Origin: an uncultured delta proteobacterium | GTDB taxonomy: Bacteria; Myxococcota; Myxococcia; Myxococcales; 40CM-4-68-19 | NCBI GenBank assembly: GCA_903911145.1 | Contig: CAIWCD010000002.1 | Coordinates: forward strand, 124,001 to 188,000 | DNA length: 64,000 bases | Direction of reading: 5' to 3' | Shown: piece after piece, positions 775 to 36,631 of the stretch | Layout: every line of letters starts with the position of its first letter | How positions within the stretch are numbered: position 1 is the first letter of the stretch | Position numbers and translations under genes: made by a program | Notes under the pieces: model-generated | Database searches by the model: none | Told to the model about the DNA's origin: nothing | Seen by the model: only the letters and a program-made list of their open reading frames with translations

Positions 775-2337
775 ATGCATCGATTTCCCGGAGTCGTCTT
801 TGGGGCCCGCGTTCACGCGGTTGAGCTTCCTGGCGATCTGCTGACGCCGTTCGGCGTCTTCTGTCTCCTCGATCAACAGCAGGCACCCGGCAGCGACGCC
901 TTCCTCTTCGAGGGCGCGCTCGGTCGCTACAGCTACGTCGGCGTCGCGGACAACTCCCGCGCGAAGAGCGGCCGTTTCATCGTGCGCAACGGCCGCGTCG
1001 TCGAAGATGGTTTGCACTCAAACCATCCTCTCGAGGCGCTGCGCGAAAAGCTCGCGTCGATCGCCACTCCGCGCGCGCCTGGCCTGCCTCCGTTCTGCGG
1101 CGGCCTCGCCGGGTATCTCGGATGGGCCGCCGCGAGATGGAGCGAATCGCTCCCGCAGAGGCTGGGCGCAGATACGCTCTTTCCCGACGCCGATCTTCTG
1201 CACGTGCGCGAGCTCGTCTCGTTCGATCATCGGTCGGGTCGAGCGTGGGCTGTCGCAAGTGGCGATGGCCGCGGCAAGGACTCCCCTGAAGCGTGCGCAG
1301 AGCGCCTTGCCGAACGGGTCCTGGGAGTGTTCCGGGCCGCGCCCAGAGCGGTCCGCAGCGATCGAGCAACGTCTCGTGCAGCTTCGCGCGCGGCTTCGCG
1401 TCGCGGCCACGGAGGGTTCCCTCCGGAGCTGCTTCGCGCCGCAGCTCCCCCGATGATCGCCGATGGGTCACGCCTCGAATCGCTGCTCTCGCCTCTCGGC
1501 GGCGGCGAGAAGGAGTTCCTGCGCAAGGCCCGCCGCGCGCTCGACTACATCCGTGCTGGCGACGTCTTCCAGGTCGTCCTCTCGCAGCGCTTCGAACTGC
1601 CCGACTGTGACGGCTTCTCGCTCTACCGCACGCTGCGCGCGGCTTCGCCTGCGCCGTACCATTTCTATCTGCGACTCGGTGGACGCGAGCTGTTTGGCGC
1701 CTCTCCTGAGTTGCTCGTGCAGGTCGAAGAGGGCGCGGTCGCGGTGCGGCCCATCGCCGGCACGCGCAGACGGGGCGCGACGTTCGCGGAAGACCAGGCG
1801 CTCGAGGCCGAGCTGCGCGCGGATCCGAAAGAGAAGGCCGAGCACGTGATGCTGGTCGATCTCGGCCGCAACGACATCGGCCGCGTCGCGAACATCGGCT
1901 CGGTGCGCGTCCCTCGCCTGCTGGAGATCGAGCGCTTCAGCCACGTCATGCACCTGGTCTCCGAGGTGACTGGCCAGCTGCGACCCGAGCTCACCGCAGT
2001 CGATGCCTTCGCCGCCGCATTCCCTGCTGGCACGCTCTCGGGCGCGCCAAAGATTCGCGCGCTGGAGATCATCGATGAGCTCGAAGAGGTTTCGCGCGGC
2101 CCCTACGGCGGCGCGGTCGGCTGGTTCTCCGGAAGCGGCGACGCGCAGCTCGCGATCGCCATCCGCACGCTCCTGCGCTCCGAAGGCCGCCTCTTCGCAC
2201 ACGCGGGGGCCGGCATCGTCGCCGACAGCGATCCTCGCGCGGAGTGGCGCGAGATCCAGGCGAAGGTCCGCGCATCCGTGCTGGCAGCGAGCGGCGCACG
2301 CGCGTACGAGCGACCCGACGAGGGAGCGCTGCGATGA
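775..2337 (+). CDS. trpE: anthranilate synthase component I (TrpE)
   Basis: 520 residues. TrpE converts chorismate and ammonia (supplied by TrpG) to anthranilate, the first committed step to tryptophan. The chorismate-binding domain covers about residues 240-505, with LFGASPELLVQVEEG (306-320), PIAGTRRRG (326-334), VDLGRNDIGRVANIG (361-375) and AGTLSGAPKIRALEII (418-433). The N-terminal domain carries FLFEGALGRYS at 43-53, where most family members have a longer LLES-type segment. The ATG at 775 is the first in-frame Met that matches the family; no strong Shine-Dalgarno precedes it. The stop overlaps trpG by ATGA. Residues 79-86 are encoded by a perfect AT-rich palindrome listed separately. 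The call is firm. Confidence 0.96.
   Translation: MHRFPGVVFGARVHAVELPGDLLTPFGVFCLLDQQQAPGSDAFLFEGALGRYSYVGVADNSRAKSGRFIVRNGRVVEDGLHSNHPLEALREKLASIATPRAPGLPPFCGGLAGYLGWAAARWSESLPQRLGADTLFPDADLLHVRELVSFDHRSGRAWAVASGDGRGKDSPEACAERLAERVLGVFRAAPRAVRSDRATSRAASRAASRRGHGGFPPELLRAAAPPMIADGSRLESLLSPLGGGEKEFLRKARRALDYIRAGDVFQVVLSQRFELPDCDGFSLYRTLRAASPAPYHFYLRLGGRELFGASPELLVQVEEGAVAVRPIAGTRRRGATFAEDQALEAELRADPKEKAEHVMLVDLGRNDIGRVANIGSVRVPRLLEIERFSHVMHLVSEVTGQLRPELTAVDAFAAAFPAGTLSGAPKIRALEIIDELEEVSRGPYGGAVGWFSGSGDAQLAIAIRTLLRSEGRLFAHAGAGIVADSDPRAEWREIQAKVRASVLAASGARAYERPDEGALR
1007..1026. repeat. AT-rich palindrome inside trpE (repeat R1)
   Basis: ATGGTTTG and CAAACCAT form a perfect 8-bp stem around CACT. 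It is AT-rich in a GC-rich gene and uses codons unlike its neighbours. The GGTTTG-ACTCAAA core is shared with the repeat at 34111-34173. The trpE frame is kept (DGLHSNHP). Confidence 0.45.
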
Positions 2338-3038
2338 GCCGCGCCCAGCAAGGGCGAGAGAGCGCACGGCGCGTTCTGCTCATCGATAACTACGACTCGT
2401 TCACCTTCAATCTGGTGCAGCGCCTCGGCGAGCTCGGCGCCGAGGTCGAGGTGATTCGCAACGACGCGTGCAGCGTGGACGAGCTCCTCGCGCGCAATCC
2501 CGAGCGCATCGTCCTCTCGCCTGGACCCTGCACGCCGCTCGAGGCGGGCATCTGTGTTCCGCTGGTACGCCGACTCGCCGGACTCGACGGGGCGCAGCCG
2601 CGCGCGATCCCGCTGCTCGGCGTCTGCCTCGGCCACCAGAGCCTCGGCGCGGCATTCGGAGCGCGCGTCATCCGTGCACCGACGCCCGTGCATGGCAAGG
2701 CTGACGAGATGATTCACGACGGCCGCGCGCTCTTTCTGGGCGCGCCCCGCCCGCTGCAGGCGGCCCGCTATCACTCTCTGATCGTCGAGGAGTCGTCCCT
2801 TCCCGACTCCCTTGTCATCGCCGCGAGAAATCGTGACCGTCTGGTCATGTCGTTGCGGCACCGCAAGCTGCCCCTCTTCGGCCTGCAGTTCCACCCCGAG
2901 TCGATCCTCACGCCGGACGGCCAGACGCTGCTGTGCAACTTTCTCTCGCTCGCGCCCGGAACGCCGTTATCGAAATTGCCGAAAGTACAAAACGGATTTC
3001 TATCGAATCGCCCCACGCGCGCACGGAAGGCACGCTGA
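2334..3038 (+). CDS. trpG: anthranilate synthase glutaminase subunit (TrpG)
   Basis: 234 residues. It is a class I glutamine amidotransferase that delivers ammonia to TrpE. Visible motifs are LLIDNYDSFTFNLVQ (near 15-29), VLSPGPCTP, the nucleophile elbow LLGVCLGHQSLG with the catalytic Cys, and FGLQFHPESILT with the catalytic His and Glu. The start overlaps the trpE stop (ATGA) and the stop overlaps the trpD start (TGATG), which implies translational coupling. After the usual C-terminus (LLCNFLSLAPG) there are about 24 extra residues of unlike composition, encoded by an AT-rich island near 2965-3012. Close relatives also serve PabA; the operon position fixes this one as TrpG. Confidence 0.95.
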   Translation: MSRAQQGRESARRVLLIDNYDSFTFNLVQRLGELGAEVEVIRNDACSVDELLARNPERIVLSPGPCTPLEAGICVPLVRRLAGLDGAQPRAIPLLGVCLGHQSLGAAFGARVIRAPTPVHGKADEMIHDGRALFLGAPRPLQAARYHSLIVEESSLPDSLVIAARNRDRLVMSLRHRKLPLFGLQFHPESILTPDGQTLLCNFLSLAPGTPLSKLPKVQNGFLSNRPTRARKAR

Positions 3039-33311: not shown

Positions 33312-33443
33312 GCCGCGGAGCACGGCGAGGTGCTGGCCGTGCTCGGACATGCATCCGCGGCTGACGCAGAAAGTGCTCCATTCAGGGAGTCGTGCGGCCG
33401 CTCCTGAACCGCGCGCGGCCAGCACCTCGCCGTGCTCCGCGGC
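33312..33443 (+). repeat. structured inverted-repeat element E1, 3' of mreB
   Basis: A perfect 27-bp inverted repeat: arm 33312-33338 begins GCCGCGGAGCACGG and arm 33417-33443 is its exact reverse complement, with 78 bases between. The loop contains ACATGCATCCGCGGCTG (33347-33363), a small CTCC/GGAG hairpin near 33376-33388, and GTGCGGCCGCT (33392-33402). Element E2 (36504-36631) has nearly the same loop but different, still paired, arms. It starts 4 bases after the mreB stop. It may be a 3'-UTR RNA structure, a terminator-like element or a dispersed palindromic repeat. Confidence 0.85.
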
Positions 33444-34104: not shown

Positions 34105-34264
34105 CTCGAGATGATTTGAGTGCCAATCAATTTGGTTTGTACTCAAAGCATTTTGCTTTGCATTCAAACCATCCCGCCAGACCATCATTGCGCTCTCTGC
34201 GCAGTTGATCGGTCCGCCCTGATCCGCGCGCAGCGATCTGCGCGGCCTACAAAGATGCTCGCGA
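34105..34264. other. non-coding stretch between the EcsC gene and element E3
   Basis: Holds the AT-rich repeat R5 (34111-34173) and then two small hairpins: TGCGC/GCGCA near 34192-34206, and an imperfect 8-bp stem with arms CCGCGCGCAG and CTGCGCGG near 34224-34245. I see no credible reading frame. Confidence 0.5.
34111..34173. repeat. AT-rich palindromic repeat 3' of the EcsC gene (R5)
   Basis: Longest member of the AT-rich family: ATGATTTGAGTGCCAAT, then TTTGG, then an imperfect hairpin whose arms are GGTTTG-n5-AAAGCA and TGCTTT-n5-CAAACC. The ACTCAAA and ATTTTGC blocks are shared with the repeat before gatC, and GATTTGAGTGCCAAT with the fmt repeat. It lies 6 bases after a stop codon. Confidence 0.6.
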
Positions 34265-34515
34265 GGCGCGTTGCCGGCGGCGGGGCGCGGACTTAGAAAC
34301 ATTTCGCTCAGCCCATCACGCTCAAGTTTCGCCTGGCACGCGCCTCCGGTTTCGCGAGCGCCAAGGTCCGGGACCAAAAGGCGCGCTCGCATGCGGAGAA
34401 GAAGATCTCGCAGGACGTCCACGTCTCCGCATGCTCCACGACTCGACATCCTCACCGCGCCCCGAGACTGCGCAGAGCGTGTTTCTACGCCGCGCCCCGC
34501 CGCCGGCAACGCGCC
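34265..34515 (-). repeat. structured inverted-repeat element E3, 3' of queC
   Basis: Perfect 26-bp arms (34265-34290 and 34490-34515, beginning GGCGCGTTGCCGGCGG), continued inward by TAGAAACA/TGTTTCTA and CGCTC/GAGCG with small bulges, about 39 bp in all. The 170-base interior has a perfect 11-bp hairpin GCATGCGGAGA/TCTCCGCATGC and a second, bulged one (GCGAGCG/CGCTCGC) that closes on GGTCC/GGACC. Read on the minus strand it begins 1 base after the queC TAG. There is no target-site duplication at the ends. The loop is not clearly related to E1/E2. Confidence 0.8.
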
Positions 34516-34516
34516 G

Positions 34517-35218
34517 CTACGTCGTCACACCGCGCGCATACCGCGTCGGATCCACCACCCCGGCATCGCGAAATCCCTGCGCCCGCAACCGGCACGAATC
34601 GCAGTGCCCGCACGCGCCACCGCTGATATCCGGGTCATAGCAACTGTGCGTCAGTTGATATGGCACCGCGAGCTCCGTCCCTCGCTGGATGATCTGCGCT
34701 TTCGTCAAGCTCTGCAGCGGTGCATGAATGCGGAAACGCACGCCCCGCGCGGCTCCGGCAGCCGTCGCGACATTCGCAAGCGACTCGAAAGCGGCGATGA
34801 ATTCGGGCCGGCAGTCGGGATATCCCGAGTAATCGATGGCATTGACGCCGATATAGATATCGGATGCGCCGAGCACCTCGGCGGCGCCGAGTGCGAGCGC
34901 GAGCATCACCGTGTTTCGCGCCGGCACGTAGGTCACGGGAATGCCCGCATCAGCACCGAGCGGGCCGTCCTTCGGCACGTTGATCTCGCTCGTCAGCGCC
35001 GAACCGCCGATCGCGCGCAGATCGATATCGACGATGCGCAAAGGCACGCCCAGAGCGGTCGCGACGCTCTCTGCTGCCTTGAGTTCAAACGCGTGGCGCT
35101 GCCCGTAGCGGACCGCGAGCGCGTGCGGAGAGAAGCCCTCGGCGCGCGCGATCGCAAGGCAGGTGCTCGAATCGAGCCCGCCGGAGAAGAGCACCACCGC
35201 TTTGGATTGTTCGGCCAT
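34517..35218 (-). CDS. queC: 7-cyano-7-deazaguanine synthase (QueC)
   Basis: 233 residues. It makes preQ0 from 7-carboxy-7-deazaguanine, ammonia and ATP, on the queuosine path. The PP-loop [14 protein letters not shown] is at 11-24, and the zinc ligands are in [17 protein letters not shown] near the C-terminus. [22 protein letters not shown] and [17 protein letters not shown] are typical. No queD/E/F is adjacent. It lies 37 bases after a lipoprotein gene on the same strand, and element E3 follows its stop. Confidence 0.95.
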
Positions 35219-36503: not shown

Positions 36504-36631
36504 GCCGCGCGGGAGCCGGATGTGGCGGCCGCGCGCAGTTCAGCAGCGGCCGCACCACTCTTCGCAGTGAGCACGGACGCCAGCCGCGGATGCATGTTTG
36601 AGCACGGCCGCCACATCCGGTCCCGCGCGGC
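36504..36631 (-). repeat. structured inverted-repeat element E2, 3' of the LON-domain gene
   Basis: Arms 36504-36530 and 36606-36631 (beginning GCCGCGCGGGA and ending GTGGCGGCC) are complementary except for one extra G, with a 75-base interior. Read on the minus strand the loop has ACATGCATCCGCGGCTG, a small CACT/AGTG hairpin and GTGCGGCCGCT, as in E1. It starts 8 bases after the stop of the LON-domain gene, in the same orientation to its gene as E1 is to mreB. Confidence 0.85.

Follow-up and report, generated by a model that had tools for sequence, protein, structure and literature searches.

E3, a dispersed intergenic repeat with a conserved folded core and a private closing stem

We show that the inverted-repeat element behind queC, here called E3, belongs to a family of 32 copies dispersed over its own 5.3-Mb genome. 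All full copies share a folded core with extensive covariation, and each is closed by a long stem of near-fixed length whose two arms match one another almost perfectly while its sequence is private to the copy. A second family, E1, with an unrelated core, is built in the same way. The initial annotation had not foreseen this dispersal. With 32 copies, some of them in tail-to-tail pairs away from stop codons, E3 is not an element special to queC.

Results

Structure of the element behind queC

The window analysed is a stretch of 64,000 nucleotides, and positions without a locus label refer to it. The features of E3 and its surroundings are as follows.

34265..34515, minus strand: whole E3 element, a core between the two arms of its closing stem; sense strand assigned from core wobble pairs and the position behind same-strand stops
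34490..34515, minus strand: E3 closing stem, 5' arm in sense orientation, 26 bp perfect, copy-specific sequence
34265..34290, minus strand: E3 closing stem, 3' arm in sense orientation, 26 bp perfect
34299..34482, minus strand: E3 conserved core ACACGCTCTG...GAGCGAAATGT, 184 nt, common to all full copies, with covariation
34389..34434, minus strand: E3 core hairpin A, formed by GCATGCGGAGA and TCTCCGCATGC, in which compensatory changes on both sides are frequent
34358..34384, minus strand: E3 core hairpin B, sense GCGCC-UUUU-GGUC-CCG-GACC-UU-GGCGC, helices 4 and 5, tip UCCCGGA nearly invariant
34201..34214, minus strand: E3 trailing motif, 50 nt past E3, reading GACCGATCAACTGC in sense (consensus of the family GACCGRNCAARAGC) and enriched behind E3 and E1
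34517..35218, minus strand: queC, whose stop codon precedes E3 (Pfam PF06508, E 5.8e-72)

The two arms (34265-34290 and 34490-34515) are 100% complementary over 26 nt and enclose 199 nt. The stem continues inward through TAGAAACA (34294-34301), which pairs with TGTTTCTA (34480-34487), and further through CGCTC (34305-34309), which pairs with GAGCG (34475-34479). Inside it, GCATGCGGAGA (34389-34399) pairs with TCTCCGCATGC (34424-34434), and a second hairpin, GCGCC-AA-GGTCCGGGACC-AAAA-GGCGC, occupies 34358-34384. The perfect 26-bp stem with its inward extension and two inner hairpins, as initially described, is thus present at 34265-34515. The second hairpin exists as claimed, but its description as a bulged GCGAGCG stem was incomplete, the structure being a GGUC-CCG-GACC hairpin on a GCGC stem. 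On the minus strand the queC stop codon occupies 34519-34517, and the stem, with its first base at 34515, follows one base later, which agrees with the earlier reading; Pfam identifies the protein as QueC. Folding of both strands had been proposed as a check, and each strand folds far better than its dinucleotide shuffles (z -7.1 for the minus and -8.4 for the plus strand), with 0/200 shuffles as good. Between the EcsC-family gene and E3, in otherwise GC-rich surroundings, the window also holds a T-rich imperfect hairpin (TTTGAGTGCCAATC...ATTCAAAC) at 34118-34172.

E3 is a repeat found in one genome

A covariance model built from 17 copies of the own genome (53 contigs of one genome, with home-made gene calls) retrieved the 32 copies at E <= 0.1, of which 30 reached E 5e-21 or better and the weakest E 5e-6, and a DNA search of the same genome gave about 20 clear copies. 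Beyond the own genome the search was made by DNA similarity and patterns. E3 was absent from the one other genome of the genus that was examined (88% complete), and a search across the order (145 genomes including the own) gave, outside the own genome, a single weak and short match in G093 (34 nt, E 4e-4), which we took as chance. Pattern matches in relatives stayed near the level of the reversed-pattern control, with one, in G001, at the start of a coding region. The relatives' queC loci carry no E3; L046 has the same convergent EcsC-queC pair and no element between. The exact core pattern was not found in GTDB or IMG/VR, where the records of the own genome were possibly left out, and no E3 was found in phages or plasmids. 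Rfam gave no match at the gathering score and chance-level matches only at relaxed thresholds (E up to 10), and E3 shows no sequence homology to YPAL/ERIC or to any RNA family described in Rfam. The search for homologues that the initial annotation had suggested therefore did turn up copies at other loci, all of them in the own genome and none in the relatives examined. E3 is intergenic and dispersed and, judged by covariation, folds as RNA, like repeats of the YPAL/ERIC type. It has been found so far in one genome only.

The core is conserved as a fold on the queC strand

All full copies share, on the sense strand, the stem-closed core of about 184 nt, ACACGCTCTG...GAGCGAAATGT, at an identity of about 70% between copies. 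Among 31 distinct copies, aligned by fitting the core to its own model, 95.9% of cells in the consensus structure are paired, and 22 of the 37 pairs show two-sided changes. The covariation score was 0.389 versus 0.132 in shuffles (0/500 as high), and slid controls were far lower. Support is good for two hairpins, GCAUGCGGAG/CUCCGCAUGC and the GGUC-CCG-GACC hairpin on its GCGC stem. In hairpin A (helix 3) both sides change in 7/8 pairs and 96.6% of cells are paired; in hairpin B (helices 4 and 5) every cell is paired (100%), with two-sided changes in 4/9 pairs.

The core also reports its strand. Read on the sense strand, its non-Watson-Crick cells are G.U in 52 cases and A.C in 10. A conserved bulge misaligns in the outermost stem of the core, and without that stem 28 versus 6 remain. 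This sense-strand excess of G.U indicates that a single folded strand, that of queC, is under selection. Covariation and wobble bias together support the multi-helix RNA that had been proposed for the minus strand. RNA would be the simplest reading of the folded strand; folded single-stranded DNA would give a similar bias.

E3 copies lie between genes, often directly behind a stop codon

Gene positions were taken from a codon-usage gene caller trained on the window, and 29 E3 copies were examined. All 29 are intergenic, and in 15 of them a same-strand stop codon stands 1-23 nt before the start of E3. Genes preceding copies include clpX, tig, smc and a sigma-70 family gene (Pfam). Among the others are copies that form the inverted second member of a tail-to-tail pair and copies in gaps between divergent genes. 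By position there are eight pairs, all tail-to-tail and never head-to-head (among them L077/L101, L079/L092, L085/L076, L090/L102, L098/L087, L091/L093 and L099/L089, in gaps that include clpX-lon and tig-clpP), and their second members precede the next gene in antisense orientation. At L090, downstream of the tail-to-tail partner, a tandem duplication of about 70 bp includes one stem arm of that partner, L102. The idea that the element carries the stop codon itself was rejected, as copies away from genes, inspected by eye, have no TAG.

A short motif trails the element. GACCGRNCAARAGC occurs 6-78 nt downstream of E3 and, allowing at most 3 mismatches, is present in 17/29 downstream stretches, 0/29 upstream stretches and 9% of random 100-mers. 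The same motif stands behind the E1 family in 12/28 cases, again with at most 3 mismatches. Exact copies number 13 in the genome (L031-L043), mostly adjoining E3 or E1; at least two, L032 and L036, are found away from both and could be signs of a third family.

E1 and E2 belong to a second family of the same design

Two further elements of the window, E1 and E2, had been noted for their similar position.

33312..33443, plus strand: E1, a member of the second family; the mreB stop lies 4 nt before it
36504..36631, minus strand: E2, which also belongs to the E1 family; a gene with a LON substrate-binding domain has its stop 6 nt before it

They represent a family of about 34 copies (L114-L143) whose core, GTGCTCRRACATGCATCCGCGGC..., is unrelated to that of E3. 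The shared gene-end placement is supported: a same-strand stop precedes 22/28 E1 copies at -4 to 8 nt, next to the 15/29 for E3. TAG is the stop codon in 17/22 cases versus 30/59 in the window, a preference too weak to build on. Wobble pairs in the E1 core favour the sense strand by 100 to 14, versus 12 to 16 in the E1 stem. E1 and E2 are thus a second family of the same design: a conserved core, a private stem and the trailing motif.

Stem length and pairing are kept, stem sequence is not

Stems measure 28-33 bp in E3 (mode 31) and 24-30 bp in E1 (mode 26), and both families have a conserved C before the stem and a T after it. Within a copy, aligned arm positions are Watson-Crick paired in 97% of cases in E3 and 95% in E1, and the residual G.U-type mismatches show no sense-strand excess (5 vs 8 in E3, 8 vs 14 in E1). 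The difference in wobble between stem and core has p = 0.0002 for the pooled families and 0.01 for E3 alone, in a test that rests on few mismatches.

Over the outer 17 nt of the E3 arm, identity is 0.92 within a copy, 0.64 between copies and 0.58 when shuffled, and it is no higher for pairs of copies whose cores are 83-90% identical. The rank correlation of stem with core similarity is 0.02 in E3 (p 0.71) and -0.03 in E1 (p 0.52), calculated over pairs that are not independent. A copy's stem is therefore not inherited with its core, though its two arms agree. The outermost bases do keep a family flavour, GGCGC in E3 (about five outer bases shared) and GCCGCGG in E1, indicating that the whole stem belongs to the element while its middle is free. 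Ordinary mobile-element copying does not explain stems that are unrelated between copies yet perfectly self-matching.

We searched 862 kb of the own genome for inverted repeats of at least 18 bp with a spacer of up to about 300 and found 21, of which 14 are E3, 5 are E1 and 2 are others; 220 kb of a relative contained none. As 19 of the 21 are E3 or E1, there is no stock of empty hairpins for insertion. One perfect 21-bp inverted repeat outside both families (TAGAGCACATCTCATAACCTC), with a 76-nt interior, lies at L283 (11887-12004). At L094 (about 1363-1704) two truncated E3 copies are fused in inverted orientation with an overlap of about 50 nt, the outcome expected of a template switch.

No target-site duplication, Y1 transposase or nearby reverse transcriptase was found

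The initial annotation saw no target-site duplication at E3, and this extends to the family: 25 E3 and 27 E1 copies did not differ from controls with swapped flanks. The Y1_Tnp domain (RAYT, PF01797) was not found in the own genome, and control genomes with Y1 gave matches. Three reverse-transcriptase genes are present; no E1 or E3 element lies near any of them, weak R1 scores there being ignored, and spread by reverse transcriptase was set aside on this ground. At L230 (about 1290-2360, plus strand) a reverse transcriptase with IGNQTSQ and YVDD motifs suggests a diversity-generating retroelement. Minus-strand ORFs at L231 and L232 encode reverse-transcriptase-like proteins that are related to one another, both with a large membrane-protein-like ORF next to them; they are possibly a defence or an unknown RT group.

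Discussion

The reading that we favour, tentatively and at somewhat under an even chance, is that E3 is a non-autonomous, non-coding RNA repeat of 3' UTRs, whose long stem shapes mRNA ends and is rewritten copy by copy. Transcription of queC and the other host genes would run through the element. The element starts within the ribosome footprint of the stop codon, so it would fold only after termination: once the terminating ribosome leaves, the core would fold and the stem of about 31 bp would close directly behind the stop. The mRNA end could then be set by this long double-stranded barrier, which would either halt 3'-5' exonucleases or be cut by an enzyme of the RNase III type. Both need length and pairing and hardly any sequence, which fits the stem statistics. 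Template switching is known to create and maintain perfect stems (PMC8794818), and switching of DNA synthesis between the arms may repeatedly copy one arm onto the other, so that stem sequence turns over while pairing survives. The inverted fusion of two copies at L094 shows that such rearrangements may occur here. It counts against the 3'-UTR reading that roughly half of the E3 copies have no stop codon just before them; counted against template switching is its prediction of an occasional inversion of the interior. Re-making of the stem at each insertion and concerted evolution of cores with free stems are possible alternatives.

The same stems can be read as a product of insertion. E3 and E1 might represent a new design of mobile element, a conserved folded core that every copy re-clamps with a self-complementary stem of fixed length, one newly made by fold-back synthesis at or soon after insertion behind stop codons and recognised by shape and length rather than sequence; we regard this as unlikely. 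A closely related proposal, to which we give an equally small probability, is an element recognised as folded single-stranded DNA, like integron attC or HUH elements, with a stem made anew by fold-back copying at each insertion. The near-fixed stem length, the strict Watson-Crick pairing free of sense wobble bias and the private sequence uncoupled from the core all suit it, as do the conserved C/T feet of both families, the lack of target duplication and the gene-end position; G.T is the best tolerated mismatch in DNA too, so the wobble bias of the core is compatible with folded DNA. Yet the Y1 search was empty and no recombinase or HUH enzyme is tied to E3, orientation follows transcription in many copies, and the family-typical ends (GGCGC, GCCGCGG) lie outside the variable block, which means that the stem is not simply target sequence. 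A MITE, the remnant of a DNA transposon moved in trans by a transposase that recognises terminal inverted repeats, is somewhat less probable again. The initial annotation had held that homologous copies with terminal inverted repeats, target duplications and an autonomous transposase partner would make E3 a MITE. Dispersed intergenic copies with terminal inverted repeats do exist, and relatives have queC loci without E3, including L046 with its EcsC-queC pair. However, the repeats differ from copy to copy and are common only over about five outer bases (0.64 vs 0.58 shuffled over the outer 17 nt), there are no target duplications, no partner emerged among the Y1 transposases and reverse transcriptases searched, and the core shows RNA covariation.

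Two further readings were considered. That the copies are independent genes for trans-acting small RNAs, placed between genes for convenience, would account for the conserved, sequence-specific loops UCCCGGA and GCGAAA within a strongly folded core and for copies in divergent intergenic regions, but some 32 divergent copies at about 70% core identity, tightly coupled to stop codons, make it very improbable. Least credible, in spite of hairpins behind stop codons and some convergent gene pairs, is that the elements are plain intrinsic terminators or that cores were inserted into terminator hairpins already in place. No T-run follows the element in the downstream sequences, while the normal terminators of genes in the window show their T-runs some 25 nt past the stop, and stem lengths and ends are family-specific. 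The near absence of empty long hairpins (19/21 being E3 or E1) largely refutes the reading and led us to reject insertion into existing terminator hairpins.

Copying repeats should carry their own ends with them; in these two unrelated families the core is retained and every memory of the stem is gone, while pairing and stem length hardly vary. They thereby offer about 60 natural replicates, in one genome, of how perfect stems arise and persist, by template switching or by stepwise compensation. They also allow asking whether stem length alone can set mRNA ends. E3 adds a folded-RNA repeat linked to stop codons to a lineage for which Rfam has no such family.

Comparison with known systems

Integron attC sites lie behind stop codons, are recognised by their fold and vary in stem sequence from site to site. 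They keep their end boxes and vary inside, whereas E3 keeps its core and varies in its stem. The R''/R' boxes of attC (RYYYAAC/GTTRRRY) were not found at the ends of E3 stems, the nearest candidate, GGGCAAC/GTTGCCC, being replaced in the window copy by TAGAAAC/GTTTCTA; the window shows no cassette array. REP/REPIN are palindromic repeats at gene ends that spread in trans and have short, conserved stems. In E3, by contrast, it is the core and not the stem that is conserved, and the genome has no Y1 (RAYT) gene. REP/REPIN and RAYT are the subject of PMC3733652.

Closer in architecture are the NEMIS/Correia elements of Neisseria, which have terminal inverted repeats of about 24 bp around a conserved core (PMC2229807, PMC2649163). 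Neisserial Correia repeat RNA is there reported to be bound by RNase III, and cut or not (PMC2649163), a precedent for the processing suggested for E3. NEMIS elements share their terminal repeat sequence, have TA ends and make target duplications, and E3 differs in all three. YPAL/RU-2 and ERIC/RU-1 are short, non-coding, folding intergenic repeats of enterobacteria that are co-transcribed with upstream genes and have been proposed to affect the stability of upstream mRNA, YPAL having its targets near dyad symmetries (PMC2229807). E3 is likewise a short, non-coding, folding intergenic repeat, and they are precedents for its proposed effect on upstream mRNA. YPAL/ERIC elements are flanked by target duplications and end in short (7 bp) repeats of family sequence, whereas E3 makes no duplication and is closed by a private stem of about 31 bp.
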